DNA from: Rhodospirillaceae bacterium | GTDB taxonomy: Bacteria > Pseudomonadota > Alphaproteobacteria > Rhodospirillales > UBA2165 | Assembly (NCBI GenBank): GCA_947467145.1 | Contig: CANIGJ010000001.1 | Location: 248,001 to 312,000 of the forward strand | Direction of reading: 5' to 3' | DNA: 64,000 nt | Part shown: positions 25,490 to 44,617 of the stretch, piece by piece | Numbering within the stretch: the stretch's first letter is position 1 | Layout: each line of letters begins with the position of its first letter | Notes under the pieces: generated by a model | Databases searched by the model: none | What the model was told of the DNA's origin: nothing | The model's input: only the letters and a program-made list of their open reading frames with translations | Made by a program: the position numbers and the translations under genes

Positions 25490-25521
25490 ATGAAAATGGG
25501 CAGCCCCGAAGGACTGCCCAT
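25490..25521 (-). terminator. Rho-independent terminator after SBP 6
   Basis: On the minus strand, ATGGGCAG (25521-25514) pairs with CTGCCCAT (25503-25496) across a 10-nt loop, with TTTT following. It starts 30 bp after the stop of SBP 6, the same distance as the related terminator of SBP 5. Confidence 0.75.
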
Positions 25522-25551
25522 TGAAGCGCTGGATCGTTCAAGGCCGGAACG

Positions 25552-27084: not shown

Positions 27085-27284
27085 AGTCGTACTCCCGTTG
27101 ATCTTGCTCGAAGCCTCGCCAGCAGGTGCCGCCCCGCCGGTCATTTACCGGAACGCCCAACAATAACTCGGGCGGCCTGGACGTTGAAGATGGAGCCTAC
27201 ACTAAATATGGGCGGAAATGTGGCTAGCTTCATGACATACCCGCCGGCTTGGGGCAGTATGGCGGCCCTTAAGGGAGGCATGTA

Positions 27285-28889: not shown

Positions 28890-30044
28890 TTAGCGGTCGC
28901 CCCATACCTCGCGCGCGACTTCGTGCACGAGGTCGAGCTTGCGACGCGTATCCTCGACCGTGATCGGGTTGCCGCGCGCACCCGACGAGAAGCCGCACTG
29001 GGGGCTCAGGCAGATGTTGTCGATCGGCATGTACTTCGCCGCATCCTCGATCCGGCGCAGCAAGGTATCGCGGTCGTCGTTTTCCGGCGTCTTGGTGGTG
29101 ACCAGACCGAGCACCGCGATCTTATCCTTCGGCATGAAACGCAGCGGCTGGAAGTCGCCGGCGCGTTCGCTGTCGTATTCGAGGAAGAAGGCATCGACAT
29201 CGAATTCGTTGAACAGCTTCTCGGCGATATACTCGTAACCGCCTTCGGCGAGCCAGGCGCCCTGGCCGTTGCCACGGCACAGATGCATGCTGACCGTGAC
29301 GTTATCGGGGCGTTTCGCCACCGCGCCGCTGATGAGGCGGCCGTGCAGCGACAGTTGATCCTGCGGATCCATCCCGTTGCGGCGCGACGCTTCCTGGAAC
29401 TTCGGATCGCACAACAGCGCCGAATCGGTATTGTCGATCTGCACATAAGTGCAGCCGTTGGCGGCGAGTTCGGCCACTTCGTCCTGATAGACCTTCATCA
29501 GGTCCTGGAAATATTCCTCGATATCCGGATAGACGTCCTTGGACACCGCCGCGCGGCCGCCGCGCACATAGGCCAAGGTCGGGGTCGGCATGGTGACCTT
29601 CACCGTGCGGTCGGTCAGCGTCTTGGTATAGAGGTAATCCTTGAGCACGATACCGCCCTCGGGCCGGCCGAGCTTGCCCACTGCATGCGCGATCGGCGGC
29701 TTGGCACCGCTGCTAAAGGTGAAGCCGTCGCCCTCGGTCTGGGCGCGCAGTTCGACACCGACAATGCGGTTGATCAGATCGTAAGCCCAAGAGCCGCGGC
29801 GCATCTCGCCATCGGTGATAACCTGCAGGCCGCAATCTTCCTCGAACTTCACAACGTCACGGATCGCGTCGTCTTCCATCTTTTTGAGCTCGGCCGCGTC
29901 TTTGTCGCTGAGCACCTTGGTGACCGACAATGAGCCGCCGGTGAGGCCCAGCTTTTCGCGATGCGAAATCAGACGCTGCGGACGAAGGAAGCTGCCGACG
30001 ATATCGGCGCGGAATGGAGGGTTGAGTTTGCGGTCGCGGGCCAA
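28890..30044 (-). CDS. Core MetE-like zinc methyltransferase 1 (cobalamin-independent methionine synthase C-terminal domain)
   Basis: 384 residues, covering only the catalytic barrel of MetE (full MetE is about 750). The zinc ligands are all present: His254 and Cys256 (HLCRGN), Glu289 (FFLEYD) and Cys350 (SPQCGF). The N-terminal PFRADIVGSFLRP and ITDGEMRR are typical of the stand-alone family. Full-length MetE moves a methyl group from methyl-folate polyglutamate to homocysteine; stand-alone core forms may use other methyl donors. It is separate from the other copies, converges on SBP 7 and is the most divergent of the four close paralogues. Confidence 0.88.
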   Translation of the reverse strand: MARDRKLNPPFRADIVGSFLRPQRLISHREKLGLTGGSLSVTKVLSDKDAAELKKMEDDAIRDVVKFEEDCGLQVITDGEMRRGSWAYDLINRIVGVELRAQTEGDGFTFSSGAKPPIAHAVGKLGRPEGGIVLKDYLYTKTLTDRTVKVTMPTPTLAYVRGGRAAVSKDVYPDIEEYFQDLMKVYQDEVAELAANGCTYVQIDNTDSALLCDPKFQEASRRNGMDPQDQLSLHGRLISGAVAKRPDNVTVSMHLCRGNGQGAWLAEGGYEYIAEKLFNEFDVDAFFLEYDSERAGDFQPLRFMPKDKIAVLGLVTTKTPENDDRDTLLRRIEDAAKYMPIDNICLSPQCGFSSGARGNPITVEDTRRKLDLVHEVAREVWGDR

Positions 30045-30080
30045 GGTTCATCTCCCGTGGATGGAATGGATCGTGGCCGC

Positions 30081-30108
30081 ACTATACGGGCTACGGCCCG
30101 TGCGGCAA
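30081..30108 (-). promoter_or_regulatory. Candidate sigma70-type promoter for MetE-like 1
   Basis: On the minus strand, TTGCCG (30108-30103) and TATAGT (30086-30081) are 16 bp apart and lie 37 nt before the ATG. The region also contains a GCCGCAC/GTGCGGC inverted repeat (30076-30082, 30100-30106) overlapping both elements. Motif match only. Confidence 0.35.
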
Positions 30109-30152
30109 CCCATGGGGAATGTCCCACCCCCGCGCCTATGGCGCTTGCGGAT

Positions 30153-31736
30153 TTATGCGCCGACAGCGCCGGCGCGGCCGTTCTCGATGACGAAGGTTTC
30201 CAAGGTCGCCACCGTGGCGTTCGGATCGTGCACGTCCGAAACCGCCTGATAGCGCGTCGTCATGCGCTCGGGCGTAAGATCGACGCTGGCATAGCCGCGC
30301 TTCTGGCTCTCCATGAAACGGACATGCGGGTTATGTTGCAGGTGGCGTTCGTAATAATCCGGCGCGCAGCCCGACGTAATCGAGGACGTGATGAACTCGG
30401 TCGCAATGACCGGCGCGGCCGGATCCAGTTTCAGATCGTTCGTCCAGAATGAGTGCATATCGCCCGACAGAACCACCGGGTTCGCCACGCGGCTTTTTTC
30501 GATTTGGCGGAGCAGGCGCGCGCGGCTTTCGGGATAGCCGTTCCAATCGTCCGTCGAGAACCTCAGATCACCCCCTTTCTGCTCTTCGGCGAATTCCGCC
30601 ATCATCATGTTCTGCGCAATGACGTTCCACCGCGTCTTCGATTGCGCTAACCCTTTGTAGAGCCAGGCTTCCTGCGGCATGCCGAGCATGGTGCGCGTGC
30701 GGTCCCGCCGCTCCGGGCAGCTCTCGTCGTTTTCCATGTGGAAGCCGCCACCGTCCGGCGGGATGTAGCAGGCCGCGCGCGAGCGGTACTGCCGCCCGTC
30801 GATCAGCGAAAATTCGGCGAGGTCGCCATAGGCGAAGCGATCGTAGATACGCATGCGCTCGCCCTTGGGACGCGACAGACTGGGGCGCAGCGGCATATGT
30901 TCGTAAAAGGCGCGATACCCAGCTGAGCGACGTTCGAGGAACACGTCGGGTTCGTCGAAGTTTTCCGACCATTCGCCGCCATAATCGTTCTGGATCTCGT
31001 GATCGTCCCAGGTGACGAGCGACGGCGCCACCGCATGCAACCGTTGCAGGTCGGCATCGAGGCGATATTGCGCATAACGATTGCGATAGGTCGGCAAGGT
31101 GCGGGCCTCGACCTCGTCGCTATGCGCGCGCACCCGATCGTACGGGTTCACATATTCATAGATGTAGTCGCCGAGAAAAAACACCAGATCGGGATTTTCA
31201 TCCGCCAGATGGCGATAGGCCGAAAAATAACCTTCTTCGTAATTCGAACACGACACGAAGCCGAAGCGCAGTTGATCGAGCGGTGCGCCGGCCGCCGGCG
31301 CGGTCCGCGCGCAACCGATGCGGCTCGAGGCTTCGCCCGAGGTGAAGCGGTACCAATAGGGCCGGTTGGAAGCGAGGCCGCCGACTTCAAGATGGACGGA
31401 ATGGGCGAAGGCCGCTTCGGCAGTCGCCGTGCCGCGCCGCACGATCTCGCGCATCGCCGGATCGGTCGCGATTTCGTAAATAATATCGATATCGCCGCGC
31501 GCCATCTCGATGCCGCCGGGAAGATCGGGATCGGCCGACAGCGGATCGGGCGCCAGCCGCGTCCACAGCACGAACCCGTCGGAGGCCGGACTGCCCGATG
31601 CGACACCAAGGCTGAAAGGATCGCGCCCGGCCCAGCGCGAATGCGCGCCGGCTCCAAGACCAACGAGAGCGGGAGCAGCAACAAGAAGACCGGCGCTGCC
31701 CCCTACCATACGAAGAAAGGAGCGGCGGGCCAGCAT
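30153..31736 (-). CDS. phoD: PhoD-family alkaline phosphatase/phosphodiesterase, Tat-exported
   Basis: 527 residues. The N-terminus has a twin-arginine signal (ARRSFLRMVGGSAG), so it is exported folded. A PhoD N-terminal domain (GVASGSPASDGFVLWTRL) is followed by the metallophosphatase core with LGDYIYEYVNPYDRVR, VTWDDHEIQNDYGG and VVLSGDMHSFWTNDL, which carry the metal-binding Asp, Asn and His residues. PhoD hydrolyses phosphate mono- and diesters to release phosphate in the periplasm. It stands between SBP groups and is divergent from SBP 8; no Pho box was recognised upstream. Confidence 0.92.
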   Translation of the reverse strand: MLARRSFLRMVGGSAGLLVAAPALVGLGAGAHSRWAGRDPFSLGVASGSPASDGFVLWTRLAPDPLSADPDLPGGIEMARGDIDIIYEIATDPAMREIVRRGTATAEAAFAHSVHLEVGGLASNRPYWYRFTSGEASSRIGCARTAPAAGAPLDQLRFGFVSCSNYEEGYFSAYRHLADENPDLVFFLGDYIYEYVNPYDRVRAHSDEVEARTLPTYRNRYAQYRLDADLQRLHAVAPSLVTWDDHEIQNDYGGEWSENFDEPDVFLERRSAGYRAFYEHMPLRPSLSRPKGERMRIYDRFAYGDLAEFSLIDGRQYRSRAACYIPPDGGGFHMENDESCPERRDRTRTMLGMPQEAWLYKGLAQSKTRWNVIAQNMMMAEFAEEQKGGDLRFSTDDWNGYPESRARLLRQIEKSRVANPVVLSGDMHSFWTNDLKLDPAAPVIATEFITSSITSGCAPDYYERHLQHNPHVRFMESQKRGYASVDLTPERMTTRYQAVSDVHDPNATVATLETFVIENGRAGAVGA

Positions 31737-32067
31737 CAGCGCGGTCGATCTTGGATGAGGTACATCATCATGCGAGGCGGAACGTATCCGCGCTGTGTGT
31801 CAGTTCCGTGAATCTAGGGCTATGGCTTTGTGAAACGTGTGCCCGCTAGCCGTTGATTAACAAACGGTTAAACCGGGTTTTGAGCGGCTTCGCACCTCGG
31901 CTATACTCGGCTCAGCCACGCGTCAAAAGGTGCGGGCATATAATTGGGAGCCGCTCACGTAAACAATAAGACATTCGGCCGCCGCCCGCGCGTGCCCAGC
32001 CTTCGTATGCGTAGCTCGTAACGGGCGTCGTATCGATGCACCTCCCGCCATAAGCAAGGAGGTCACC
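31737..32067. other. 331-bp divergent intergenic region (phoD / SBP 8) with candidate promoter
   Basis: No coding sequence is evident. TTGAGC (31880-31885) and TATACT (31902-31907) are 16 bp apart and could drive SBP 8 with a leader of about 150 nt. A perfect TATAAT lies at 31939-31944 without an obvious -35. The stretch around 31850-31880 is AT-rich (TTGATTAACAAACGGTTAAACC). AAGGAGG at 32057-32063 is the ribosome binding site of SBP 8. No conserved RNA element was recognised. Confidence 0.4.
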
Positions 32068-33618
32068 ATGTCTCGTAGCGTTTCACGTATCGTATTCGGT
32101 CTCGCTGTTTCGTCACTCATCTGGAGCGGCTCCGCGCTCGCGCAGAAGTCCAAGGACGAACTGCGCTTCGCCATCAACGACATGTTCCCGGTCGCCGACC
32201 CTTATGTCTTTCCGCTCGACGAGGCCGGCGTGGTCACGCGTACGATCTTCTCGCCGCTGTTCGCGTTCCAGGAAAAGGAAAAGAAGTTCATCGGCCTGGT
32301 CGCCAAATCCTGGCGCATCCTCGATCCCGGCGTCTACGAGTTTGATATCCGAGAGGACATCACCTTTCATTCCGGCAACAAGCTGACCGCCGACGACGTG
32401 GTCTATACCTTGAATTTCTTCGCCGACCCGCAGGCCAAGATCCGCTTCAAGCAGCGTTACGATTGGTTCCATCCGGTCGAAAAGCTTGGGCCACACAAGA
32501 TCCGCATCCGCGCGAAGATTCCCCAGGCCGACGATTTCGCAAAGCTCGCCTACCGCTCGCGCATTTTCGACAAGAAGATCCATGAACCGCTGGGCTACGA
32601 GAAATACGGCGATTACGGCCGCGTGTCGGGATCCGGGTCGGGACCGTACAAGATGGTGAGCATCGACAAGCAAAAAATCGTGCTTGAGAAATTCAAGGAC
32701 GTGAAGGACGACGTGCAGCGTCAGGCGGTCGGCCGGTATGTCGGCATCCATATGCCGGACGAACAATCGCAGATCGCCCAGCTCCTGACCGGCGGCATCG
32801 ATGCGATCCGCAATGTCTCGCCCGACAACGCGAAATCGCTCGGGCAGAATCCGGACTTGAAGGTCAAGAACGTCTCGTCCGCCGACATCGTCTACATCAC
32901 GCTCGATGCGGCCGGCCGATCCAAGAACAAGGCCCTGACCGACCAGCGCGTGCGCAAGGCCCTGATGATGGCGATCGACCGCGACGCGCTGATCAAGAAC
33001 ATCGTGCCGGGCGCCGGCACGGCGGAGAAGCTGAAATATATCTGCTTCGATTGGACGATCGATTGCACCGCGACGACGCAAACGCAATCGTATGATCCCA
33101 GCACCGCCAAGCGCCTGCTCGCCGAAGCCGGTTATCCCAACGGCTTCGACCTGCAGCTCGACGTTCATGAGCCGGTGCGCGAGATTGCTGAGGCCGTGTC
33201 CGGCGAATTGCGCAAGATCGGCATCCGCGCCTCGGTCCAGCCGATGCCCTTGGCGGTTTACGTGAAGAAGCGCGGCGACGGGGAATTCACCGCCTTCATG
33301 GGCTTCTATCCGACGAGCGCGCAGCCCGATACCGCCAATATCCTCGACTTTTTCTTGGGCCAGGATCGCGACTACTACAAAGACGACATCTTGCTGAAGG
33401 CCATGAGCGAAGGCCCGGCGGAACTAGAGGATAAAAAGCGCCAGGCCATGTTCCGCACGGCGATCGATCGGATCAACGAGATGAACTACATCTTACCCTT
33501 CTCGTCCCTGCCGACCGCCTATGCCATGAGCAAGGATGTCGATATCGCGCCCGATGCGTTCAGCTTCAGCGCGGTCTATCTCAACGACCTAGTCTGGGCC
33601 GGATATAAGGGAAAGTAG
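32068..33618 (+). CDS. SBP_bac_5 periplasmic substrate-binding protein 8, orphan (first of the plus array)
   Basis: 516 residues. Signal peptide ending GSALA, mature QKSKDELRFAINDMFPVAD. Blocks are EDITFHSGNKLTADDVVYTL (HSG instead of the HNG seen in the minus array), TGGIDAIRNVSPDNAKSL, C326-x6-C333 (CFDWTIDC) and KRLLAEAGYPNGFD. The ligand loop is FYPTSAQPDTAN (Thr416). The C-terminus ends LVWAGYKGK, as in SBP 9. A strong AAGGAGG site precedes the ATG. SBPs 8, 9 and 10 are tandem, about 100 bp apart, and much more alike than any is to the minus array. Confidence 0.94.
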   Translation: MSRSVSRIVFGLAVSSLIWSGSALAQKSKDELRFAINDMFPVADPYVFPLDEAGVVTRTIFSPLFAFQEKEKKFIGLVAKSWRILDPGVYEFDIREDITFHSGNKLTADDVVYTLNFFADPQAKIRFKQRYDWFHPVEKLGPHKIRIRAKIPQADDFAKLAYRSRIFDKKIHEPLGYEKYGDYGRVSGSGSGPYKMVSIDKQKIVLEKFKDVKDDVQRQAVGRYVGIHMPDEQSQIAQLLTGGIDAIRNVSPDNAKSLGQNPDLKVKNVSSADIVYITLDAAGRSKNKALTDQRVRKALMMAIDRDALIKNIVPGAGTAEKLKYICFDWTIDCTATTQTQSYDPSTAKRLLAEAGYPNGFDLQLDVHEPVREIAEAVSGELRKIGIRASVQPMPLAVYVKKRGDGEFTAFMGFYPTSAQPDTANILDFFLGQDRDYYKDDILLKAMSEGPAELEDKKRQAMFRTAIDRINEMNYILPFSSLPTAYAMSKDVDIAPDAFSFSAVYLNDLVWAGYKGK

Positions 33619-33662
33619 GTCGCCGCAGCCGCTGCTTCGTAGACTCCCTTCCTTTACCGGGG

Positions 33663-33690
33663 CGGGCGCGAACGCTAAGGTTCGCGCCCG
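33663..33690 (+). repeat. Intercistronic hairpin between SBP 8 and SBP 9
   Basis: CGGGCGCGAAC (33663-33673) pairs exactly with GTTCGCGCCCG (33680-33690) across GCTAAG. There is no T-run. A homologous hairpin with a compensatory base-pair change lies at 35310-35333, between SBP 9 and SBP 10. Confidence 0.7.
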
Positions 33691-33725
33691 TTACTATATA
33701 AAAAACGTATCCAGGGGAGTGTTTC

Positions 33726-35273
33726 ATGTCTCGTATCGCAGTGGCCGCACTCGGCCTCGCGGCGGCCTCGCTGGCCGCCATCGCGCCGGCGCATGCACAA
33801 AAAGCCAAAGACGAACTTCGCTTCGCCATCAACGACATGTTTCCCGTCGTCGATCAGTATGTCTTTGCGCAGGACGAAGCGGGCCTGATCTCGCGCGCCA
33901 TGTATTCGCCGTTGGTCGGCTATCAGGAAAAGGAAAAACGGTTCGTCGGCCTGATCGCCAAATCCTGGCGCACCGTCGAACCCGGCGTCTACGAATTCGA
34001 AATCCGCGATGACATCACCTTCCATTCGGGCAACAAGCTGACCGCCGACGATGTCATCTACACGATGAACTTCTTCGCCGATCCGGCGGTGAAGATCAGG
34101 TTCAAACAACGTTACGATTGGTTCCACCCTGTCGAGAAGTTGGGCGAATACAAGCTGCGCGTCCGCGCCAAGGTCCCGCAGGCCGACGATTTCGCCAAAC
34201 TCGCCTACCGTTCGCGCGTGTACGACAAGAAAATCCACGAAGCGCTCGGCATGGAGAAATACGGCGATTACGGCCGCATCTCCGGATCGGGGGCGGGGCC
34301 GTACAAGCTGGTGAGCATCGATAAACAAAAGATCGTGCTCGAGAAATTCGCGAACCTGAAAGACGATTACCAGCGCCAGCCGGTCAACCGCTATGTCGGC
34401 ATCCATATGCCGGACGAACAATCGCAGATCGCGCAATTGCTGACCGGCGGTATCGACGCCATTCGCAGCGTGTCGCCGGATAACGCCAAAGCGCTGGCGC
34501 AGAACCCGGCACTGAAGGTTAAGAACGTCGCATCGAGCGATGTCGTCTACGTCACACTCGATGCGGCCGGACGATCGAAGAACAAGGCGATGACCGATCA
34601 GCGGGTGCGCAAGGCCTTCATGATGGCGCTCGATCGCGATGCCATCATCAAAAACATCGTCCCGGGCGACGGCACGGCGGAAAAGCTGCGCATGATCTGC
34701 TTCGATTGGACGATCGATTGCTCGGCGACCGTGCCGGTGCAAGGCTACGATCCGAGCACCGCCAAACGCCTGCTGGCCGAGGCGGGTTTCCCCAACGGCT
34801 TCGATCTGCAATTCGACGTGCATGAACCGGTGCGCGAGATCGCCGAGGCGATCGCCGGCGATTTGCGCAAGGTCGGCATCCGCGCCTCGATCCAGCCGCT
34901 GCCGAACAGCGTCTATGTCAAGAAACGCGGCGACGGCGAGTTCACCGCCTTCATGGGATATTATCCGACAACCGCGCAGCCCGATTCCGGCAATGTGCTG
35001 GACTTCTTCATGGGTCAGGATCGCGATTATTACAAAGATGAGATCCTGCAGAAAATAAACAACGAAGGCGTAACCGAACTGGACGATACGAAACGCCGCG
35101 CGATGTATCGCACGGCGTTCAATCGGGTCAACGAGATGAACTATATCGTGCCCTTCTCGTCACTGCCGACCGCCTATGCCATGAGCAAGGACGTCGACAT
35201 CGCGCCCGACGTCTTCAGCTATACGGCCGTCTACATGAACGATCTGGTCTGGGCGGGCTACAAGGGCAAATAA
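33726..35273 (+). CDS. SBP_bac_5 periplasmic substrate-binding protein 9, orphan
   Basis: 515 residues. Signal peptide ending APAHA, mature QKAKDELRFAINDMFPVVD. Blocks are DDITFHSGNKLTADDVIYTM, TGGIDAIRSVSPDNAKAL, CFDWTIDC and KRLLAEAGFPNGFD. The ligand loop is YYPTTAQPDSGN; the C-terminus is LVWAGYKGK. It is almost a duplicate of SBP 8, differing by substitutions scattered along the protein. AGGGGAG lies 7 nt before the ATG. The 107-bp spacer before it and the 97-bp spacer after it are themselves similar, showing that gene-plus-spacer units were duplicated. Confidence 0.94.
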   Translation: MSRIAVAALGLAAASLAAIAPAHAQKAKDELRFAINDMFPVVDQYVFAQDEAGLISRAMYSPLVGYQEKEKRFVGLIAKSWRTVEPGVYEFEIRDDITFHSGNKLTADDVIYTMNFFADPAVKIRFKQRYDWFHPVEKLGEYKLRVRAKVPQADDFAKLAYRSRVYDKKIHEALGMEKYGDYGRISGSGAGPYKLVSIDKQKIVLEKFANLKDDYQRQPVNRYVGIHMPDEQSQIAQLLTGGIDAIRSVSPDNAKALAQNPALKVKNVASSDVVYVTLDAAGRSKNKAMTDQRVRKAFMMALDRDAIIKNIVPGDGTAEKLRMICFDWTIDCSATVPVQGYDPSTAKRLLAEAGFPNGFDLQFDVHEPVREIAEAIAGDLRKVGIRASIQPLPNSVYVKKRGDGEFTAFMGYYPTTAQPDSGNVLDFFMGQDRDYYKDEILQKINNEGVTELDDTKRRAMYRTAFNRVNEMNYIVPFSSLPTAYAMSKDVDIAPDVFSYTAVYMNDLVWAGYKGK

Positions 35274-35309
35274 GCCCCGTTCGTAGACTCCGTTACTTTA
35301 CCCCAGCGG

Positions 35310-35333
35310 GCGCGGACGCTACAGTCCGCGCCT
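35310..35333 (+). repeat. Intercistronic hairpin between SBP 9 and SBP 10
   Basis: GGCGCGGAC (35310-35318) pairs with GTCCGCGCC (35325-35333) across GCTACA. It matches the hairpin at 33663-33690 with one A-T pair changed to G-C on both arms, so pairing is kept. The flanking GTAGACTCC...CTTTACC text is also shared. Confidence 0.7.
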
Positions 35334-35370
35334 GATACTTTTATATATAATAATATTAATGGAGAGCTTC

Positions 35371-36912
35371 ATGTCCCGTATTGCAGCGGCCGTATTCAGC
35401 CTTGCGGCAGCTTCGCTGTTCGCCCTTTCCCCGGCGCAGGCGCAAAAATCGAAGAACGAGATGCGCGTCGTCATCAACGACATGTTTCCGGTTCTCGATC
35501 CCATCGTCTTCCCGCAGGACGAAGCGGGCACGTTCCACCATGCCGTCTATCAGTCGCTGCTCGCCTATGAAGAGCATCAGAAAAAATACATGCCGCTGCT
35601 GGCCAAGTCGTGGACCATCGTGCAGCCGGGCGTCTACGATTTCGAACTGCGCGACGATGTGACGTTCCATTCCGGCAATAAGATGACCGCCGACGACGTC
35701 GTCTGGACGATGATGTATTTCGCCGATCCGAAACTGAAAGTCCGCTTCAAGGCGCGTTACGACTGGGTGAAGTCGGTCGAGAAATTGAGCGACTATAAAG
35801 TCCGCATCACGTCCAACCAGCCGCTGGCCAGCGATCTGTTCATGCTCGCGTATCGTTCGCGCATCTACGACACCAAAATCCTGAGCAAGATGGACAATCC
35901 GAACGATTACGGGCGCGTGTCGGCGTCCGCGACCGGCCCCTACAAAATGGTCAGCATCGACAAGTCGAAGATCATCCTGGAGAAGTTCGCCGACAGTAAG
36001 GACACCTACGACCGCCAGGGCGTGAACCGCTATATCGGCTTCGGCATTCCCGACGAGCAGACCCAGATCGCCCAGATGATGACGGGCAACCTGGACGCCA
36101 TCCGCAACATCTCGTCCGATAACGCGACCTCCATCGCCAAGACGCCGAACATGAAGATGGTCGACACCCCAGGTGGCGACATCGTTTATGTGACGCTCGA
36201 CGCGGCCGGCCGCTCCAAGAACAAGGTCATGACCGACCAGCGCGTGCGCAAGGCGGTCATGATGGCGATCAACCGCGACGAACTGATCAAGCATATCGTC
36301 CCGGGCCATGGCACGGCGGTGAAGCTGAAGGGCATCTGCCTCGAATCGACCTACGACTGCACCTACGGCGTGCTGCCGACCGACTTCAATCCGACCGAGG
36401 CCAAAAAGCTATTGGCCGAAGCCGGCTTCCCGAACGGGTTCGAACTGCAACTCGACGTTCATGAACCGGTCCGCGAGATCGGCGAGGCGATCGCCGGGGA
36501 GCTGCGCAAGATCGGCATCAAGGCGGCCGTTCAGCCGATGCCGCTCAACGTCTATGTGAAGCGCCGCGGCGAAGGCGAATTCACCATGTTCGCCGGCTTC
36601 TACCCCACGTCCTCGCAGCCCGACACAATGAACCTGTTCGATTTCTTCTTCGGCCAGGATCGCGATTATTACAAAGACGACCTCATCTTGAAGGCGCAAC
36701 AGGAAGCGAATCTCGAATTCGACGATGCCAAACGCCGCAAGTTGTATCTCGACGGCATCAATCGCGTGAACGAGATGAACTACATCATCCCCTTCTCGAC
36801 CTTGCCCGCGGCCTACGCCATGACCAAGGAAGTGAAGATCATGAAGAACCGCTACAGCGCCACGGCGGTCTATATCAACGATCTCGTGTGGGACGATTAT
36901 AAGGGCCAGTAA
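35371..36912 (+). CDS. SBP_bac_5 periplasmic substrate-binding protein 10, orphan (last of the plus array)
   Basis: 513 residues from the ATG at 35371. An ATG at 35359 is in frame, but the ribosome binding site GGAGAG lies between the two and the signal peptide (MSRIAAAVFSLAAAS, as in SBP 9) starts at 35371. Mature start QKSKNEMRVVINDMFPVLD. Blocks are DDVTFHSGNKMTADDVVWTM, TGNLDAIRNISSDNATSI, CLESTYDC and KKLLAEAGFPNGFE. The ligand loop is FYPTSSQPDTMN. It is the most diverged of the three plus-array genes and is followed by a terminator and then three MetE-like genes on the same strand. Confidence 0.94.
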   Translation: MSRIAAAVFSLAAASLFALSPAQAQKSKNEMRVVINDMFPVLDPIVFPQDEAGTFHHAVYQSLLAYEEHQKKYMPLLAKSWTIVQPGVYDFELRDDVTFHSGNKMTADDVVWTMMYFADPKLKVRFKARYDWVKSVEKLSDYKVRITSNQPLASDLFMLAYRSRIYDTKILSKMDNPNDYGRVSASATGPYKMVSIDKSKIILEKFADSKDTYDRQGVNRYIGFGIPDEQTQIAQMMTGNLDAIRNISSDNATSIAKTPNMKMVDTPGGDIVYVTLDAAGRSKNKVMTDQRVRKAVMMAINRDELIKHIVPGHGTAVKLKGICLESTYDCTYGVLPTDFNPTEAKKLLAEAGFPNGFELQLDVHEPVREIGEAIAGELRKIGIKAAVQPMPLNVYVKRRGEGEFTMFAGFYPTSSQPDTMNLFDFFFGQDRDYYKDDLILKAQQEANLEFDDAKRRKLYLDGINRVNEMNYIIPFSTLPAAYAMTKEVKIMKNRYSATAVYINDLVWDDYKGQ

Positions 36913-36935
36913 ACCGGCCTTTTTACCGGACAACG

Positions 36936-36983
36936 GGCCCACCTTCGGCGGCGCAAAAACGCGCATCGGATGTGGGCCTTTTT
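36936..36983 (+). terminator. Terminator after SBP 10
   Basis: GGCCCAC (36936-36942) pairs with GTGGGCC (36972-36978), followed by TTTTTCTT. The loop is long (29 nt) and may fold further. It separates the SBP array from the MetE-like array on the same strand. Confidence 0.65.
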
Positions 36984-37063
36984 CTTGGCCTGTTTTCATT
37001 GACAGGCGCAATGATGTGAGTCATGCGTACTGGCATAAAAATGCCAGGAGAGGACTCAACCAA

Positions 37064-38185
37064 ATGGCCACCCGCAAAGGACCGTTTCGCGCCGATCATG
37101 TCGGCAGCCTGATCCGTCCCGATCACCTGCTCGACGCGCGCGCCAAACGCAAAGCGGGCGAGCTCAGCCAGGAGGCACTGACCAAGCTCGAAGACGAATT
37201 GATCCGCGACGTGATCGGCTTGCAGGAAGCGGCCGGCATGAAAGTCGTGACCGATGGCGAGTTCCGCCGCCAGACTTGGCATGTGGATTTTCTGACCGGC
37301 TTCGACAATGTGTCTGAAGCGCCCGGCAAGCTCGATGTTTTCTTCAAGCAGGCCGACGGCACCGTCACGAGCACGAAGCCCAACGGCATGTATGTGTCGG
37401 GCAAGCTGAAACGTTCCAAATCGATCCAGGGCTCGGACTTCGAATTCATCAAGGCGGCGACCAAGGTCACGCCTAAGGTCTGCATCCCGTCGCCGTCGCT
37501 GATGCATTTCCGTGGCGGACGCGAGGCGATCGACGCCAAGGCCTATCCCCATATGGACGATTTCTGGGCCGATCTTGCCCGCGTCTATAATGAGGAGATC
37601 CAGGATCTCGTCAAACGCGGCCTCAAATACCTGCAGATCGACGATACCAACCTCGCCTATCTGTGCGACGAGAATTTCCGCAGCGCCGTCAAAGCGCTGG
37701 GCGAGGATCCGGACAAGCTGCCCGGCACCTACGTCAAACTGATCAACGATTGCATCAAGGGCCTGCCCGACGATGTGACCACCGCGATCCATCTGTGCCG
37801 CGGCAATGCCTCGACCGGCGGCGTCGCCAAGGGCGGTTACGAACCGGTGGCCGAAGCGCTGCTCGGCGGCCTCAATGTCGACGGCTTCTTCCTCGAATAT
37901 GACGACGAACGCTCGGGCGACTTCAAGCCGCTGCGCTTCCTGCCCAAGGGCAAGACCGTCGTGCTCGGTCTGGTCACCACCAAGAACCCGCGCCTCGAAA
38001 GCAGCGACGAATTGAAGCGCCGCATCGACGAGGCGACCAAAGTCGTGTCGCTCGACCAACTGGCACTCAGCCCGCAATGCGGGTTCTCATCGGGCGCCGG
38101 CAAACGACCCATCACCATCGCCGACGAAAAGAAGAAGCTCGCCCGCATTGTCGAGACCGCGGATGCGGTCTGGGGGCGCGCCTAG
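37064..38185 (+). CDS. Core MetE-like zinc methyltransferase 2
   Basis: 373 residues, catalytic barrel only. Zinc ligands: His243, Cys245 (HLCRGN), Glu278 (FFLEYDDERSGDF) and Cys339 (SPQCGFSSG). PFRADHVGSLIRP at the N-terminus and YLQIDDTNLAYLCD in the middle are shared with copies 3 and 4. The ATG at 37064 is preferred over an upstream in-frame ATG because homology begins there and AGGAGAGGA precedes it. It is the first of three tandem paralogues (spacings 45 and 69 bp) directly downstream of the SBP 8-10 array. It has the SSG variant of the Cys loop, unlike copies 3 and 4 (GTG). Confidence 0.9.
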   Translation: MATRKGPFRADHVGSLIRPDHLLDARAKRKAGELSQEALTKLEDELIRDVIGLQEAAGMKVVTDGEFRRQTWHVDFLTGFDNVSEAPGKLDVFFKQADGTVTSTKPNGMYVSGKLKRSKSIQGSDFEFIKAATKVTPKVCIPSPSLMHFRGGREAIDAKAYPHMDDFWADLARVYNEEIQDLVKRGLKYLQIDDTNLAYLCDENFRSAVKALGEDPDKLPGTYVKLINDCIKGLPDDVTTAIHLCRGNASTGGVAKGGYEPVAEALLGGLNVDGFFLEYDDERSGDFKPLRFLPKGKTVVLGLVTTKNPRLESSDELKRRIDEATKVVSLDQLALSPQCGFSSGAGKRPITIADEKKKLARIVETADAVWGRA

Positions 38186-38230
38186 AACAAGAAACCATCA
38201 CCAAACGACCCTGTAACAAAAGGAACTCGC

Positions 38231-39376
38231 ATGTCACGTAACACCAACATTCCCTTCCGCGCCGACCATGTCGGCAGCCTGCCGCGCCCCGAATATGTGC
38301 TCGACGCGCGCGACGCCAAGGCCGAAGGCAAGATCAGCGCCGCTGAACTGCGCGCCGTCGAAGACAAGGCGATCGCCGAAGTCGCCGGCTGGCAGCAGGA
38401 CCTCGGCCTCAAAGGCATCACCGACGGCGAATATCGCCGCGCCCTGTGGCACATGGATTTCCTGTCGCAGATCGGCAACGTGAAGCAGGGCGAAGGCCGT
38501 TTCGTCATCGGTTCGGACAAGGCCGACCAAAACGGCTTCCGTCCGCAATGCATGGTCACCACCGGCAAGCTTGGCCGCCCGAAGGGCATCCAGACCGAAG
38601 ACTTCAAGTACCTGAAAAGCGTCGTCAAGGAGACGCCGAAGGTCTGCGTGCCGTCGCCGACCCTGATGCATTTCCGTGGCGGTCGCGATGCGGTGGACCA
38701 GGCCGCTTACCCGACGATGGATATGTTCTTCGCCGACGTCGCCAAGGTCTATAACGAGGAATTCAAGGAACTCGCGAGCCTCGGCCTCAAATACCTGCAG
38801 ATCGACGACACCAACCTCGCCTATCTGTGCGACAGCAACATTCGCGGCGAACTCGAAGGCGTCGGCGAGAAGCCGGACGCCCTGCTCGACACCTATATCA
38901 AGCTGATCAACGACTCGGTCGCCGGCCTGCCCGACGACATGACCGTTTGCCTGCATATGTGCCGCGGCAATTTCGGTCGTATCTCCAAGGGCAGCTACGA
39001 GCCGGTCGCCGACAAGCTGTTCAACACCCTCGACGTCGACGGCTTCTTCCTGGAATACGACGACGAACGTTCGGGCGATTTCGCGCCGATCCGTTTCGTG
39101 CCGAAGGGCAAGCGCGTTGTGCTCGGCCTGTTGACCACGAAGGACCCGCAGGTCGAAGACGCCGAGCCGGTGAAGAAGCGTATCGATCAGGCGGCGAAGT
39201 ATCTGCCGCTCGACAATCTGGCGATCAGCGCCCAGTGCGGTTTCGGCACCGGCGCCGGGCGTCAGCCGAACCGCCGCCGCATGGATGCGACGCGCAAGTT
39301 CTGCTCGATCGACGACACCAAGGCGAAACTCGGCCGCATCGTGGGGATCGCCCGCGACGTCTGGGGTACCGTCTAA
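38231..39376 (+). CDS. Core MetE-like zinc methyltransferase 3
   Basis: 381 residues. Zinc ligands: His242, Cys244 (HMCRGN), Glu275 and Cys336 (SAQCGFGTG). Like copy 4, and unlike copies 1 and 2, it has an extra C-terminal segment with a further Cys (TRKFCSIDD), and an RRR-rich loop after the Cys motif. MSRNTNIPFRADHVGSLPRPEYVLDARDAK closely matches copy 4. AAAAGGA precedes the ATG. Its position within a three-gene tandem suggests gene amplification followed by specialisation on related methyl donors or acceptors. Confidence 0.9.
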   Translation: MSRNTNIPFRADHVGSLPRPEYVLDARDAKAEGKISAAELRAVEDKAIAEVAGWQQDLGLKGITDGEYRRALWHMDFLSQIGNVKQGEGRFVIGSDKADQNGFRPQCMVTTGKLGRPKGIQTEDFKYLKSVVKETPKVCVPSPTLMHFRGGRDAVDQAAYPTMDMFFADVAKVYNEEFKELASLGLKYLQIDDTNLAYLCDSNIRGELEGVGEKPDALLDTYIKLINDSVAGLPDDMTVCLHMCRGNFGRISKGSYEPVADKLFNTLDVDGFFLEYDDERSGDFAPIRFVPKGKRVVLGLLTTKDPQVEDAEPVKKRIDQAAKYLPLDNLAISAQCGFGTGAGRQPNRRRMDATRKFCSIDDTKAKLGRIVGIARDVWGTV

Positions 39377-39386
39377 CTTTAGATAT

Positions 39387-39413
39387 CCGGGCCCGGTACC
39401 GCGCCGGGCCCGG
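39387..39413 (+). repeat. Intercistronic GC hairpin made of two self-complementary decamers
   Basis: CCGGGCCCGG occurs at 39387-39396 and again at 39404-39413, separated by TACCGCG. Each copy is its own reverse complement, so they form a very stable 10-bp stem (7-nt loop) or cruciform. There is no T-run. It sits in the 69-bp gap between MetE-like 3 and 4. Confidence 0.6.
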
Positions 39414-39445
39414 CACTAACGACAACGTACAGAGGAGGAATCACC

Positions 39446-40588
39446 ATGGCTGACAAGAAAAAGGGACCGTTCCGCGCCGATCATGTGGGCAGCCTACCCC
39501 GCCCGGATTACGTGCTCGATGCCCGCGACGACAAGGCCGCCGGTAAGATCACGCCGGCCGAACTGCGCAAGATCGAAGACCGCGCCATCGCCGACGTCGC
39601 CAAGGCGCAGGAAAATCTCGGCCTGAAGGGTATCACCGACGGCGAATACCGCCGTTTCCTCTGGCATCTCGATTTCCTGTCGTCGTTCGACAATGTCGCC
39701 GAAAAGCCCGGCCGCTTCCTGCTCGGCGTCGACAAGACCGAGGATATCTCGAAAGGCTTCCGCCCGAACTGCATGGCGACGACCGGCAAGTTCACGCGCT
39801 CCAAGCCGATCCAGCTCGAGGACTTCAAGTTCCTGAAGCAGCAGACCAGCCAGACCGCCAAGGTCTGCGTGCCGTCACCGACGCTCATGCATTTCCGTGG
39901 CGGCCGCGATGCGGTGGACGCCAAGACCTATCCGAACCTCGATCAGTTCTACACGGACGTCGCCAAGGCCTATAACGACGAATTCCAGGACCTGGCCAAG
40001 GCGGGCTGCAAATACATCCAGATCGACGACACCAACTTCACCTATTTGTGCGATCCGAAGATCCGCAACTCGGTGGCGGAAATGGGCGAGGATCCGGATG
40101 AATTGACCGACACCTACATCAAGCTGGTCAATGATTCGATCAAAGGCCTGCCGTCCGACGTCACCGTGAACTTCCACATGTGCCGCGGCAATTTCGGCAA
40201 GCTCGCCTCGGGCAGCTACGACCACATCGCCGACAAGCTGTTCAATGGCCTGAAGGTCGACGGCTACCTGCTCGAATACGATGACGAACGTTCGGGCGGC
40301 TTTGAGCCGCTGCGCATGATGCCGCGCGACAAGCGCGTCATGCTGGGCCTGCTCACCACCAAGAGCCCGGTCTTGGAAGATAAAAGCATGCTCAAGAAGC
40401 GCATCGACGAAGCGGCGAAGTTCCTGCCGCTCGAGAACTTGGCGCTGGGCGCACAATGCGGTTTCGGCACCGGCGCCATCCGGGTGGCCCGCACAGACGG
40501 CCCGCGCCACTTCTGCACCTGGGACGAGACCCAGGCGAAGCTCGGCCATATCGTGCAGACTGCCCGCGAGGTCTGGGGCGAAGTCTAA
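39446..40588 (+). CDS. Core MetE-like zinc methyltransferase 4
   Basis: 380 residues. Zinc ligands: His244, Cys246 (HMCRGN), Glu277 (LLEYDDERSGGF) and Cys338 (GAQCGFGTG), plus Cys357 near the end (RHFCTWDE), also found in copy 3. AGAGGAGG lies just before the ATG, the strongest ribosome binding site of the three tandem copies. It ends the tandem and is followed by a strong terminator. Copies 3 and 4 are the closest pair. No full-length MetE or MetH gene lies in the window, so a role in methionine synthesis cannot be excluded for any of the copies. Confidence 0.9.
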   Translation: MADKKKGPFRADHVGSLPRPDYVLDARDDKAAGKITPAELRKIEDRAIADVAKAQENLGLKGITDGEYRRFLWHLDFLSSFDNVAEKPGRFLLGVDKTEDISKGFRPNCMATTGKFTRSKPIQLEDFKFLKQQTSQTAKVCVPSPTLMHFRGGRDAVDAKTYPNLDQFYTDVAKAYNDEFQDLAKAGCKYIQIDDTNFTYLCDPKIRNSVAEMGEDPDELTDTYIKLVNDSIKGLPSDVTVNFHMCRGNFGKLASGSYDHIADKLFNGLKVDGYLLEYDDERSGGFEPLRMMPRDKRVMLGLLTTKSPVLEDKSMLKKRIDEAAKFLPLENLALGAQCGFGTGAIRVARTDGPRHFCTWDETQAKLGHIVQTAREVWGEV

Positions 40589-40609
40589 AACTTCACTCCA
40601 TCGAAATAG

Positions 40610-40650
40610 AAAAGGCCCGGCCACTGGTAAATCATGGCCGGGCCTTTTTT
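40610..40650 (+). terminator. Rho-independent terminator after the MetE-like tandem
   Basis: AAAAGGCCCGGCCA (40610-40623) pairs with TGGCCGGGCCTTTT (40635-40648) across an 11-nt loop, with a 7-T run. It is the strongest terminator in the window. Confidence 0.92.
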
Positions 40651-40667
40651 TATGCTAAAATCGCATC

Positions 40668-40790
40668 ATGAAATTCATCATTCTCATCCTGGCAACTTGC
40701 CTGCTGGCCGCTTGCACGGCCGACCAGATGGGTGCCGCCAGTAAAAGCTGGTGTCGCAACAGCCCGGATATCTGTACGGTGAACGAATAG
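40668..40790 (+). CDS. Small predicted lipoprotein (40 residues)
   Basis: A short gene coding 40 residues. MKFIILILATCLLAAC is a compact lipoprotein signal with lipobox LAAC and lipidation at Cys16. The mature part is only 25 residues and has two more cysteines (SWC at 29 and DIC at 36) that could form a disulfide. TATGCTAAAAT just upstream could be a -10 element; no clear ribosome binding site is seen. It follows the terminator of the MetE-like tandem and precedes a DUF2798 gene. I do not recognise a named family; it is believable as a small envelope protein because of the textbook lipobox and in-frame stop. Confidence 0.65.
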   Translation: MKFIILILATCLLAACTADQMGAASKSWCRNSPDICTVNE

Positions 40791-40828
40791 CGTCAGGGCG
40801 TGGCACCCCGGTTCGTTCAGCAGGCCCT

Positions 40829-41059
40829 ATGTTAGGCATCCCACGGCGTTACGCCCATTTCGTCTTCGGCATCATCCAGTCCGGCCTGACCTCCGCCGTC
40901 GCGGCCGCGATCGCCAGCTATCCATTCATCGAAACCGGCGGCTTTCTCGCGCACTGGCTTAGTGCCTGGGTGATCTCCTGGCTGCTCATGCTGCCGGTCG
41001 TGATCTTCGCCGCCCCCGGCATCCGCCGGCTGGCCAACGCGCTCACACGCGAAGCTTAG
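40829..41059 (+). CDS. DUF2798-like small membrane protein
   Basis: 76 residues with two membrane helices (about 8-30 and 38-60) and the pattern GIPRRYAHFVFGIIQSG...SWLLMLPVVIFAAPGIRRL, typical of the DUF2798 family found in many proteobacteria. The ATG at 40829 gives the normal family length; a longer in-frame version from about 40751 would overlap the lipoprotein gene and adds residues without homology. The function of the family is unknown. Its 3' end overlaps the 3' end of the convergent MetE-like gene by 4 bp. Confidence 0.78.
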   Translation: MLGIPRRYAHFVFGIIQSGLTSAVAAAIASYPFIETGGFLAHWLSAWVISWLLMLPVVIFAAPGIRRLANALTREA

Positions 41060-42183
41060 TATCCCAGCGCCTTGCTGGCGAGTGCGGCGCCCTCGGTCAG
41101 GGATTTCAGCTTCGCCCAGGCGATCTGCGGATGTGAGCGCCCACCGAAGCCGCAATCGGCCCCAGCAATCACATTCTCGCGCCCAACCAGCTTGGCGAAG
41201 CGCTGGATGCGCTGCGACACAAGCTCCGGATGTTCGATGCCGTCGGTGGCATGGCTGATCACGCCGGGGATCAGGATTTTGCCCTTCGGCAGTTTCACAT
41301 TCTCCCACACGGCATATTCGTGTTCGTGGCGCGCATTGGCGGCCTCGATGAGGTACCCCTCCGCCTTCACGTTCAGCATGATGTCGACGATATGAACCAT
41401 TTCCAGATCATAGGCATGCGGACCGTGCCAGCTGCCCCAGCACAGGTGATAGCGGATTTGCTCGGCGGGGATATTGCGGAAGGCATGATTGAGCGCCTCG
41501 ACCCGCACGGCGCAGCGCTTACGAAACGCGTCGAGCCCCATCTTGATGCCGATGCGGTCCCACAACGCCGGCAGCCAGGCATCATCGACCTGAAGGATAA
41601 GCCCCGCCTTGGCGATCATCTCGTATTCGACGCGTAAGGCTTCGGCGAAGGCGAAGAGATATTCCTCCTCGCTCTTATAGAATTCGTTTTCGCGATAGAC
41701 CTCGAGACTGGCCGGCGCGGTCGAGGTGAGGAACACCTCGTTGCCGTTGGTATTGGCCTTCAGGGTATCGATCTCGTGCTGGACCTCTTTCTGCGCCTGA
41801 TAGGTGACCGGGCCGGTGCAGACCCAATTCGGGCGCGAATGACGGATCTGGCTGTTGTTGTTGACCGCATAGAACAGGGTACCCGCCTTGCTCGCATAAT
41901 CGTAGAACTCGGCGAATTCCTCGCGGTCCTTACCCTGCAGGATCAGCGGTTTGCCGTCCTTGCGCGGGCGTTCGGAAAAGCCGCCGAAGCGATGATCGAC
42001 ATAGGACAGCCAATCGCCGCCCTTGGTGTATTCGCCCTCGTTGATGATATCGAGGCCGATGGCGCGCTGCTGCTTCACCACATCGACGACAGCGGCTTTG
42101 ACCTTCGCCTCGCTATCCAGGCCGTCCGGCTCCGGCAGGCTGCCGACGTGGGTCGTGAGGATCTTTTTGGTGCTGCGTTGCAT
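41056..42183 (-). CDS. MetE/epoxyalkane:CoM transferase-like zinc alkyltransferase
   Basis: 375 residues, zinc methyltransferase barrel. Ligands: His246 and Cys248 (YHLCWGSWHGPH), Glu280 (YLIEAANARHEHE) and Cys344 (GADCGFGG). The loops after the ligands differ clearly from the four MetE-like copies and resemble epoxyalkane:coenzyme M transferase-type proteins, which activate a thiol on zinc and alkylate it. It is the last gene of a five-gene minus operon behind a Rieske oxygenase (11-bp gap) and a complete ABC importer. Coenzyme M use cannot be inferred; the thiol could be another small thiol or homocysteine. Confidence 0.85.
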   Translation of the reverse strand: MQRSTKKILTTHVGSLPEPDGLDSEAKVKAAVVDVVKQQRAIGLDIINEGEYTKGGDWLSYVDHRFGGFSERPRKDGKPLILQGKDREEFAEFYDYASKAGTLFYAVNNNSQIRHSRPNWVCTGPVTYQAQKEVQHEIDTLKANTNGNEVFLTSTAPASLEVYRENEFYKSEEEYLFAFAEALRVEYEMIAKAGLILQVDDAWLPALWDRIGIKMGLDAFRKRCAVRVEALNHAFRNIPAEQIRYHLCWGSWHGPHAYDLEMVHIVDIMLNVKAEGYLIEAANARHEHEYAVWENVKLPKGKILIPGVISHATDGIEHPELVSQRIQRFAKLVGRENVIAGADCGFGGRSHPQIAWAKLKSLTEGAALASKALGY

Positions 42184-42194
42184 GTAACGTCTCC

Positions 42195-43496
42195 CTATTC
42201 AGCGATGGCGAGCGTGCCGCGGCTCGCCGGATCGAAGCCGCGCCACCAGCCGCCCAACAGATCGGTATCGGCGGCGACTTCCTGGCTGAGTACCACCATC
42301 TCGTTCAGCGCATCGGGCTGGCCGTCGCGTTCGACGAACATGGGATCGCGACCCGCCTGCATGTCCTCGATCGCTTTCAGCAATTGGCGGCGCATCATGA
42401 TGACGGCGCGATCGGTCGTGCCCAGATGTTCGACGGACCGATCCAGGATAGCGCCTTGCGCCTCCGTCGCCAGCTTGTCGTGCGATTGGAACGAACGACC
42501 CAGCCCGACGAAGCTCGTCTGCTTCATTTCCTCGCGGTTCTGCATGTAGCGGTTCTGACGAGTGCGCGGGCTGCGGAAATCCGCACCGATCTCGGCGAAC
42601 TGCGAATTGCGCTGAAACTCGGCATCGACCGGACCGTCGGATCGATAGGCGAGCGTATATTTCCAATGGCTGTAATCGTCGACCGGCACATGCCAATGGA
42701 CCTGATAGCCGACATTGTCGTTGACCGCGCCCTTGCGTGGATCGACCAGCGGCGAGCCGTGGAACGACGACGCATTGGGCATGATGAAATTGGTGATGCG
42801 GACGAAGCGTTTGCCCGGGCGGTTGGCGCGCGCGGCGAACAGACGCAGCCCATAGGCGGTTTCCTCGACCTCGATCTGCGGGGCGGGGTCGTTGGAGATC
42901 AGCTTGTTGAGTTCCGATTCGACCGCCTCGGCCTGCGACAGGAAGCGATGCAAATACGACAGATGCTGCGGATCGATATTGCCTTCGTTGGCTTGCAGGT
43001 AATTGCATTCCTGCAAGACCTTGATGACGAAGGTATGCTCGATGGGTTTGTTCATGAACGGAAAGTTCGGCAAGCGCGGCGCCTCGCCTTCACCCATATA
43101 TGCGAAGATCAATCCGCCGAGATCGCACGCCGGATAGGCAGTATGGCGGATCTTGGTCTTGAAGGCGCTGCCGTCCGGTTCGCCCGGCTGTTCCATGCAG
43201 CGCCCCTCACCCGACAGCAACCAGCCATGATAGATGCAGCGCAGTCCGCCGTTCTCGACCCGGCCGTAACTCAGATCGACCGCGCGATGCGGACAGGCCC
43301 GGCCGATCAATTGCGGTTGGCCCTTCGCGTCGCGGAACAGCACCAGTTCCTCACCCATGACATCGACGGGCAGCGGCGTGTCCTCCGATAGCTCGCTGGA
43401 CAGCGCCACCGGCTGCCAATAGCGCCGCAGCATCTCCCCGCCTGGCGTGCCCTTACTGGTCCGTGTGACCAATTCGTTCTGTTCGCGACTGAGCAT
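42195..43496 (-). CDS. Rieske [2Fe-2S] ring-hydroxylating/demethylating oxygenase, catalytic subunit
   Basis: 433 residues. Rieske cluster ligands are Cys68, His70, Cys87 and His90 (CPHRAVD, CIYHGW). The mononuclear iron site is Asp175, His178 and His183 in EGNIDPQHLSYLH. The layout fits the phthalate-dioxygenase / O-demethylase branch, which needs a separate reductase; no reductase gene is seen here. It is encoded between the ABC importer ATPase (18-bp gap) and the zinc alkyltransferase, which suggests that the imported compound is oxidised and then dealkylated. The related gene at the right edge (63220-64000) shares the iron motif layout. Confidence 0.9.
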   Translation of the reverse strand: MLSREQNELVTRTSKGTPGGEMLRRYWQPVALSSELSEDTPLPVDVMGEELVLFRDAKGQPQLIGRACPHRAVDLSYGRVENGGLRCIYHGWLLSGEGRCMEQPGEPDGSAFKTKIRHTAYPACDLGGLIFAYMGEGEAPRLPNFPFMNKPIEHTFVIKVLQECNYLQANEGNIDPQHLSYLHRFLSQAEAVESELNKLISNDPAPQIEVEETAYGLRLFAARANRPGKRFVRITNFIMPNASSFHGSPLVDPRKGAVNDNVGYQVHWHVPVDDYSHWKYTLAYRSDGPVDAEFQRNSQFAEIGADFRSPRTRQNRYMQNREEMKQTSFVGLGRSFQSHDKLATEAQGAILDRSVEHLGTTDRAVIMMRRQLLKAIEDMQAGRDPMFVERDGQPDALNEMVVLSQEVAADTDLLGGWWRGFDPASRGTLAIAE

Positions 43497-43514
43497 GACC
43501 TTGTCTCCTACTTT

Positions 43515-44606: not shown

Positions 44607-44617
44607 CAACTTTCTCC

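Follow-up and report, generated by a model that had tools for sequence, protein, structure and literature searches.

The window analysed here, a stretch of 64,000 nucleotides (C1:248001-312000) from the metagenome-assembled genome (MAG) of a Rhodospirillaceae bacterium (GCA_947467145.1, here G000), carries five genes coding for stand-alone relatives of the core barrel of the methionine synthase MetE, numbered copies 1 to 5 (Table 1). As called, their products are 375-389 amino acids long, and the only Pfam family found in them is PF01717 (Meth_synt_2; 57.0, 57.5, 60.1, 58.5, and 37.4 bits for copies 1 to 5, cut-off 21), with no match to the Meth_synt_1 half in the Pfam scan of any of the five. 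An earlier reading of this stretch, made from the letters alone (the sequence-only reading), had proposed five such proteins with complete zinc sites and without the N-terminal half of MetE, and in both respects it is borne out. Copies 1 to 4 score 351.3, 398.0, 354.4, and 346.5 bits against NF005085/PRK06520 (cut-off 313), and under the cut-off of PRK06233; copy 5 reaches 36.3 bits against NF005085, far under that cut-off. Pairwise identity is 43-65% among copies 1 to 4 (54-65% among the tandem copies 2 to 4, separated by 45 and 69 bp) and 20-23% between copy 5 and the others; copies 3 and 4 have a longer segment past the last zinc-binding Cys than do copies 1 and 2. The five open reading frames (ORFs) are not due to chance, since they display a codon-position G+C bias and low dN/dS values, which against the orthologues in a sister locus (L044) are 0.095, 0.100, 0.096, and 0.062 for copies 1, 3, 4, and 5, respectively; these four copies are under purifying selection. 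Copy 1 and its orthologue are 90.6% identical. The model of copy 4 (pLDDT 81.8) has its best match among solved structures in 1ypx (Z 34.7, rmsd 2.2, 313 residues aligned) and also matches the MetE of Thermotoga maritima, 1xr2 (Z 32.8); that of copy 5 has a pLDDT of 70.5, and no claim is based on it.

The relationships of the copies were examined in an IQ-TREE phylogeny of 49 rows picked by hand. Copies 1 to 4 belong to clade A (24 rows, support 100/100), which also contains a gene of Priestia megaterium, and copy 5 belongs to clade B (16 rows, 100/100). The epoxyalkane:coenzyme M (CoM) transferases (EaCoMTs) form a clade of their own (100/99), as does MesD with two relatives (97/87), while the deeper joins are unsettled, including that of clade B with the EaCoMTs (46/23). 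The five copies thus fall into two families, both separate from the MesD, EaCoMT, and MetE sequences used for comparison. The nearest neighbour of copy 2 in the tree is another copy of the same genome, at ca. 208.5 kb of contig C1 (L042). Of the plasmid records carrying relatives, 39 were found for copy 5 (13 examined, 11 in the tree) and 347 for copy 4 (4 examined, one of them unannotated, and 3 in the tree); the sphingomonad loci PP1Y and RL4 enter the gene-cluster count given below and not the tree. The tree and the residue counts omit a copy at ca. 104.1 kb of contig C5, which has one in-frame TAA and a truncated ORF call, and before alignment the L043 ORF and copy 2 were trimmed of their upstream extensions.

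In E. coli MetE the zinc ligands are H641, C643, E665, and C726, and homocysteine is contacted by S433, E484, and D599 (PMC7857596). All seven residues are aligned with identical ones in copies 1 to 5, the zinc set of copy 4 (H244, C246, E277, and C338) being invariant across a nine-sequence alignment. Among the rows of the tree the zinc ligands are kept throughout (24/24 in clade A and 16/16 in clade B), and so is D599 (24/24 and 16/16), while S433 is found in 24/24 and 15/16 rows and E484 in 22/24 (the other two have Asp) and 16/16. With the zinc site and S433, E484, and D599 in place, the five copies should bind homocysteine or some other thiol bearing the same amino and carboxyl groups, and they look active in their stand-alone form, as had been proposed; different acceptors for the individual copies, also proposed, find no support in these residues.

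The EaCoMTs served as a control for the acceptor site. Three were used, from Xanthobacter Py2 (annotated as 2-hydroxypropyl-CoM lyase, presumably XecA), Nocardioides JS614, and Mycolicibacterium NBB4 (the last two annotated as methionine synthase family members, which we take to be EtnE); the JS614 and NBB4 genes adjoin alkene monooxygenase genes. All three enzymes keep the zinc ligands and D599, but have Asn in place of S433 and Lys or Arg in place of E484, a rule derived here from these three sequences, while copies 1 to 5 all have Ser and Glu. The likeness of copy 5 to EaCoMTs, seen by the sequence-only reading in its altered loops, fails because the acceptor residues changed in EaCoMTs are unchanged in copy 5, which is ruled out as an EaCoMT at this site; moreover, it is 24-26% identical to XecA and EtnE, and in the phylogeny suggested as a check it falls outside the EaCoMT clade, although a sister relationship of the two clades is neither supported nor refuted. 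The comparison suggests a simple residue test for distinguishing homocysteine from CoM enzymes in a family whose members are annotated alike. A second EtnE-like copy, apparently broken and partly annotated as a hypothetical protein, is present in pNOCA01 (NC_008697.1, 176152-177185) amid a mirrored set of pathway genes.

The donor side is a different matter. T. maritima MetE stacks the pterin on Trp539 and anchors it through Glu583, and its two substrates are linked by the segment Asp467-Met-Val (PMC539065); with a constant shift of 22 these residues correspond to W561, E605, and D489-V491 of the E. coli enzyme. In clade A, D489, M490, and V491 are each kept in 0/24 rows and W561 in 1/24; in clade B, D489 is kept in 2/16 (copy 5 and its orthologue), M490 and V491 in 0/16, and W561 in 1/16, so that the Asp-Met-Val triplet is intact in no row of either clade. 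E605, at a position where the alignment has gaps, is kept in 5/24 clade A rows, copy 1 included, and in 0/16 of clade B. Met-Val and the pterin-binding Trp are thus gone from all five copies, with copy 5 keeping the Asp alone. At the position of the triplet copies 2 to 4 have WH.DF and copy 1 SWAYDL, at that of the Trp HFRGGR and YVRGGR, respectively, and copy 5 has other sequences again at both. MesD, which by genetics works without methyl-tetrahydrofolate (methyl-THF) and occurs in aerobes (PMC7857596), has likewise lost D489, M490, and W561, and keeps V491. Since the folate contacts of MetE are mostly lost, the donor side, as read from the alignment, is rebuilt relative to MetE in all five copies. 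Hence the earlier suggestion of different methyl donors is plausible insofar as the donor side is unlike that of MetE; for donors differing among copies 1 to 4 it is only plausible, as their segments past the last zinc Cys differ in length but many clade A residues outside the zinc and homocysteine set are invariant.

These features make it about an even chance (ca. 50%) that copies 1 to 5 are homocysteine S-methyltransferases with a donor site other than that of MetE. They would be single-barrel zinc enzymes making methionine from homocysteine, in which zinc, held by the His-x-Cys, Glu, and Cys ligands, would activate the homocysteine thiolate, and the conserved Ser, Glu, and Asp would hold its carboxylate and amino groups, as their counterparts do in the solved MetE complexes. 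The methyl donor would sit at the mouth of the barrel, in the rebuilt site, and would probably be neither methyl-folate bound as in MetE nor a corrinoid protein of the B12-binding_2 kind. The likeliest donors may be imported methylated compounds broken down by the products of the surrounding catabolic genes, or the demethylation products of such compounds; copy 5 might receive methyl groups from methoxylated aromatics.

The five copies are part of a much larger set. The MAG (3,735,433 bases in 37 contigs, 90.7% complete, 0.29% contaminated) contains 27 PF01717 rows, and ORF reading, together with one gene detected by a profile built from copies 1 to 5, gives 24 family genes, namely a two-barrel MetE and 23 stand-alone genes, of which the tree assigns 16 to clade A, five to clade B, and one (L027) to a place beside MesD, the truncated one being left out. 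The sequence-only reading, which considered five copies more than methionine synthesis needs, thus understated the case. Among 60 genomes of the order, counting this one, PF01717 matches occur in each of the 24 that belong to the same family, with 1 to 26 rows each, and in 11/36 outside the family, with at most 6 rows. A genome of the same genus (G001), which appears to be the one carrying the sister locus (G060 has identical match coordinates), has 25 rows, and the expansion is therefore not an artefact of a single assembly. The two-barrel metE (L028:8265-10559, contig C7) lies beside a canonical metF, and its N-terminal half contains a single in-frame TGA, which may be an error or a mutation; its PF01717 match (E 6.9e-157) is far stronger than the best among the 23 relatives of the same family (E 2.9e-39). 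No MetH (PF02965) and no B12-binding_2 domain (PF02607) were found in the 90.7% complete MAG, while 7/14 and 9/14 controls, respectively, were positive. A search for MesX (DUF1852) also gave no match, but this shows little, because it was blank in all 14 controls and in 76/76 genomes of the class. No riboswitch reaches the gathering score in the window or around the copies elsewhere in the genome, canonical metE included, so riboswitch control cannot tell the copies apart, and a promoter scan gave 4 hits versus 3.4 expected. Methylenetetrahydrofolate reductase (MTHFR) is represented by three rows: the canonical MetF on C7, a divergent gene in the window, and one on C26 (L033:12115-13608), fused to an N-terminal DUF5981 and located ca. 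2 kb from a stand-alone clade A copy. In another MAG of the family, apparently G015, three stand-alone MetE-like genes lie within 5 kb (L045:4505-9137), and one of these forms a long, very divergent branch in the tree.

Relatives in other organisms bear on the two clades in different ways. Six sphingomonad plasmid records contain a relative of copy 5 (34-36% identity), and in all five examined (three annotated, two by tblastn) it lies within ca. 10 kb of genes for an aminomethyltransferase, MTHFR, and PurU, with ligA-ligB inside the same stretch in 4/5; in Croceicoccus it overlaps the neighbouring dihydroneopterin aldolase gene. By their gene content these look like tetrahydrofolate O-demethylation clusters of a type we take to be that of LigM/DesA. 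The naming follows in part PMC9404685. That relatives of copy 5 lie close to aromatic demethylation genes suggests methoxylated aromatics as the source of its methyl groups; the genome studied here has only a weak match (28%, E 1e-5) to the aminomethyltransferase of these clusters. If copy 5-type enzymes serve aromatic O-demethylation, the lignin pathways of sphingomonads include a methyl-transfer step of which no description was found in the literature searched on these paralogues in catabolism or with LigM; the terms in question do not occur in PMC8091115.

For clade A, the P. megaterium gene, annotated as methionine synthase-like and presumably yxjG, is preceded by an S-adenosylmethionine (SAM) riboswitch (86.2 bits). 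Copies 1 to 4 are 33-41% identical to its product and share its zinc and homocysteine residues, and the structure matched by the copy 4 model, 1YPX of Listeria monocytogenes, is related to YxjG/YxjH (PRK06520, PRK06233); the present genome differs in having 16 clade A copies, none with a riboswitch at the gathering score, and in the extra residues of copies 3 and 4 past the last zinc Cys. In Lactobacillus paracasei yxjH is induced without methionine (PMC6004538), which together with the riboswitch fits homocysteine methylation for clade A. YxjG-type enzymes were found here in Firmicutes, Actinomycetota, and Alphaproteobacteria; their methyl donor is nowhere demonstrated in the literature passages covered, and in the main text of PMC7857596 YxjG/YxjH do not appear. 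A genome such as this, whose 23 stand-alone copies lie in catabolic surroundings, provides natural experiments for studying the donor. It is a warning, though, that in PMC12366255 low growth was seen that might come from such a gene: genes of this kind do not necessarily sustain methionine synthesis in the usual conditions, and this would agree both with a special donor and with inactivity.

The surroundings of the copies are summarised in Table 1.

Table 1. Copies 1 to 5 and neighbouring features, in window coordinates
Feature	Position	Strand	Remarks
SBP_bac_5 periplasmic binding protein	27285-28811	+	PF00496, row C1:275492-276571; convergent with copy 1, 78 bp
Copy 1	28890-30044	-	core MetE paralogue of the YxjG/PRK06520 type, stand-alone
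Three tandem SBP_bac_5 genes	32068-33618, 33726-35273, 35359-36912	+	PF00496, rows C1:280287, 281942, 283584
Copy 2	37016-38185	+	YxjG/PRK06520 type; likelier ATG start 37064
Copy 3	38231-39376	+	YxjG/PRK06520 type; extra residues past last zinc Cys
Copy 4	39446-40588	+	YxjG/PRK06520 type; extra residues past last zinc Cys
Copy 5	41056-42183	-	separate core MetE clade (clade B)
Rieske oxygenase, LigXa_C type	42195-43496	-	PF00355 69.5 bits, PF19301 102.7 bits; adjoins copy 5
Candidate ABC ATPase	43515-45410		by ORF reading
ABC transporter	44618-47488	-	permease 44618-46363 by ORF reading; SBP_bac_1-type binding protein 46391-47488 by Pfam
Alpha/beta hydrolase	47616-48431	-	PF12697 69.8 bits
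AMP-binding acyl-CoA ligase	48328-49884	-	PF00501 234.4 bits
Two CoA-transferase-like genes	50565-51449, 51446-52273	+	PF01144 70.1 and 33.1 bits
Divergent MTHFR-like gene	53949-54863	+	PF02219 111.7 bits

The three tandem SBP_bac_5 genes lie on the same strand as copies 2 to 4 and end 151 bp before the ATG of copy 2. The genome has 95 SBP_bac_5 rows, 11 of them in the window, nine of these in two tandem arrays (18814-28811 and 32068-36912) with no permease ORF read between the genes, although no dedicated permease scan was made; it also has 46 LigXa_C rows, 42 above the cut-off. At two other sites (C33, 17-31 kb, and C8, 85-93 kb) SBP_bac_5 and LigXa-type Rieske genes alternate one by one in arrays, as recurring pairs of a binding protein and an oxygenase. 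Directly upstream of the MTHFR-like gene lies a gene (52506-53912) for a 468-amino-acid protein with no Pfam or NCBIfam match. In the sister locus the order of copies 1, 3, 4, and 5, a PhoD-like gene, two binding protein genes, the hydrolase, the CoA ligase, a MarR-like gene, and the two CoA-transferases is kept; copy 2 and one binding protein gene are missing, the hydrolase orthologue adjoins that of copy 5, and one other ORF lies between the hydrolase and the ligase. The hydrolase as a partner shared with other loci was considered and rejected, as that of the window has no detectable kinship to the hydrolases found by clade B genes in Roseobacters and in the sphingomonad clusters. Elsewhere in the genome, genes of the LigA, LigB, and Rieske types follow the clade A copy L037, which, like the copy near the DUF5981-MTHFR fusion, is a point in favour of the reading with a non-MetE donor site.

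Several observations weigh against homocysteine methylation from donors supplied by the neighbouring catabolic genes. The Rieske-ABC block beside copy 5 (42195-47488) is missing in the sister locus. In a permutation analysis of 21 stand-alone loci (two tandem copies dropped; neighbouring Rieske rows merged from 46 to 44; one of 23 positions ca. 20-60 bases off; six tests, uncorrected), SBP_bac_5 genes lie within 500 bp of 4/21 loci versus 1.2 expected, a weak excess (p 0.023) that fades at 1.5 kb (4/21, p 0.098) and 3 kb (5/21, p 0.115), while LigXa-type Rieske genes are not above chance (0, 1, and 1 of 21 at the same distances). Duplication of a module of binding protein and MetE-like genes is rejected too, as the tree of the binding proteins (22 of 95 rows) does not mirror that of the copies. 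Outside the sphingomonads the seven clade B loci examined have other neighbours: in Rhodococcus PD04 the gene directly follows a two-barrel metE (a position that itself speaks for methylation of homocysteine), in Marinovum it lies ca. 5 kb from a gene annotated as dimethylsulfoniopropionate (DMSP) demethylase, and in Pantoea, two more Roseobacters, another Rhodococcus, and a haloarchaeon it has neither metE nor a DMSP demethylase gene as a neighbour. No demethylation genes are present at the three annotated clade A plasmid loci examined. Finally, clade A has the near-invariant residues R10, R19, R69, R70, K139, R247, R282, K306, and K365, and such cationic residues could accommodate a folate polyglutamate bound in a different way. 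That many clade A residues outside the zinc and homocysteine set hardly vary, ten of them Arg, Lys, or His, also argues against a broad spectrum of donors.

The near-invariant Arg and Lys residues speak for an alternative that is less probable, though not remote, namely that the copies are ordinary methionine synthases using 5-methyl-THF held otherwise than in MetE, redundant back-ups tuned by regulation. It is favoured by the control of Firmicute YxjG/YxjH by methionine signals, the SAM riboswitch on the one hand and a T-box and induction on the other (PMC6004538, whose authors name methyl-THF as the donor); moreover, as no MetH was found and the two-barrel metE has an in-frame TGA, the stand-alone copies may be needed. 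However, the second barrel and most folate contacts of the C-terminal one are gone, and 23 copies, 54-65% identical even within the tandem and under purifying selection in the four tested, go beyond what redundancy readily explains. The copies share with canonical MetE the C-terminal barrel fold (in the copy 4 model) and the zinc and homocysteine residues, but have neither its two barrels nor an intact Asp-Met-Val triplet and the Trp, and are 18-22% identical to the barrel of the MetE encoded in the same genome. Somewhat more doubtful is the proposal that the copies are a new class of zinc-homocysteine demethylases, each with its own imported methylated compound, e.g., a methoxylated aromatic, as the direct source of the methyl group, without a folate or corrinoid carrier, so that this bacterial family would use up to 20-odd of them in catabolism beside its Rieske oxygenases.

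The other alternatives concern known enzymes of the superfamily. Alkyl-thiol transferases with another acceptor or electrophile, acting like EaCoMTs in xenobiotic breakdown, would share the single PF01717 barrel and the zinc ligands and would suit the catabolic neighbours; the identity of copy 5 to EtnE (26%) is slightly higher than that to MesD (22%) or to the MetE of its own genome (18%), and the join of clade B with the EaCoMTs is unsettled, but the acceptor residues altered in the three EaCoMTs are unaltered in all five copies, which makes this unlikely. All five copies have the features of core methionine synthases: Meth_synt_2 without Meth_synt_1, the zinc ligands, and the Ser, Glu, and Asp that contact homocysteine. 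They resemble in this MesA-MesD, which likewise consist of a single Meth_synt_2 barrel with these residues and no folate barrel (PMC7857596); of these, the comparison covers the sequence of MesD, from Acetobacter, beside DUF1852. Core synthases of the MesA/B/C kind, with a methylated corrinoid protein as methyl donor, would agree with the use of methylcobalamin in vitro by the characterised ones (PMC7857596, PMC7005905); with no B12-binding_2 row and no MetH in this MAG, where carriers lacking that domain were not sought, such a role is quite improbable. Least credible are MesD-like synthases dependent on oxygen and a MesX partner, even though MesD is also folate-independent and comes from aerobes (PMC7857596), and its Acetobacter gene adjoins DUF1852 near a Rieske gene: the copies are 20-24% identical to MesD, below the thresholds of ca. 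55% and 72% used in PMC7857596, and form separate clades, the blank MesX search adding little. Homocysteine methylation with a non-MetE donor site is the reading we retain.

A relative of copy 5 (39.8% identity) is also present in a record from human faeces labelled 'Bacteriophage sp.' (MT835538.1, 3996-5201), possibly bacterial DNA in a phage record.

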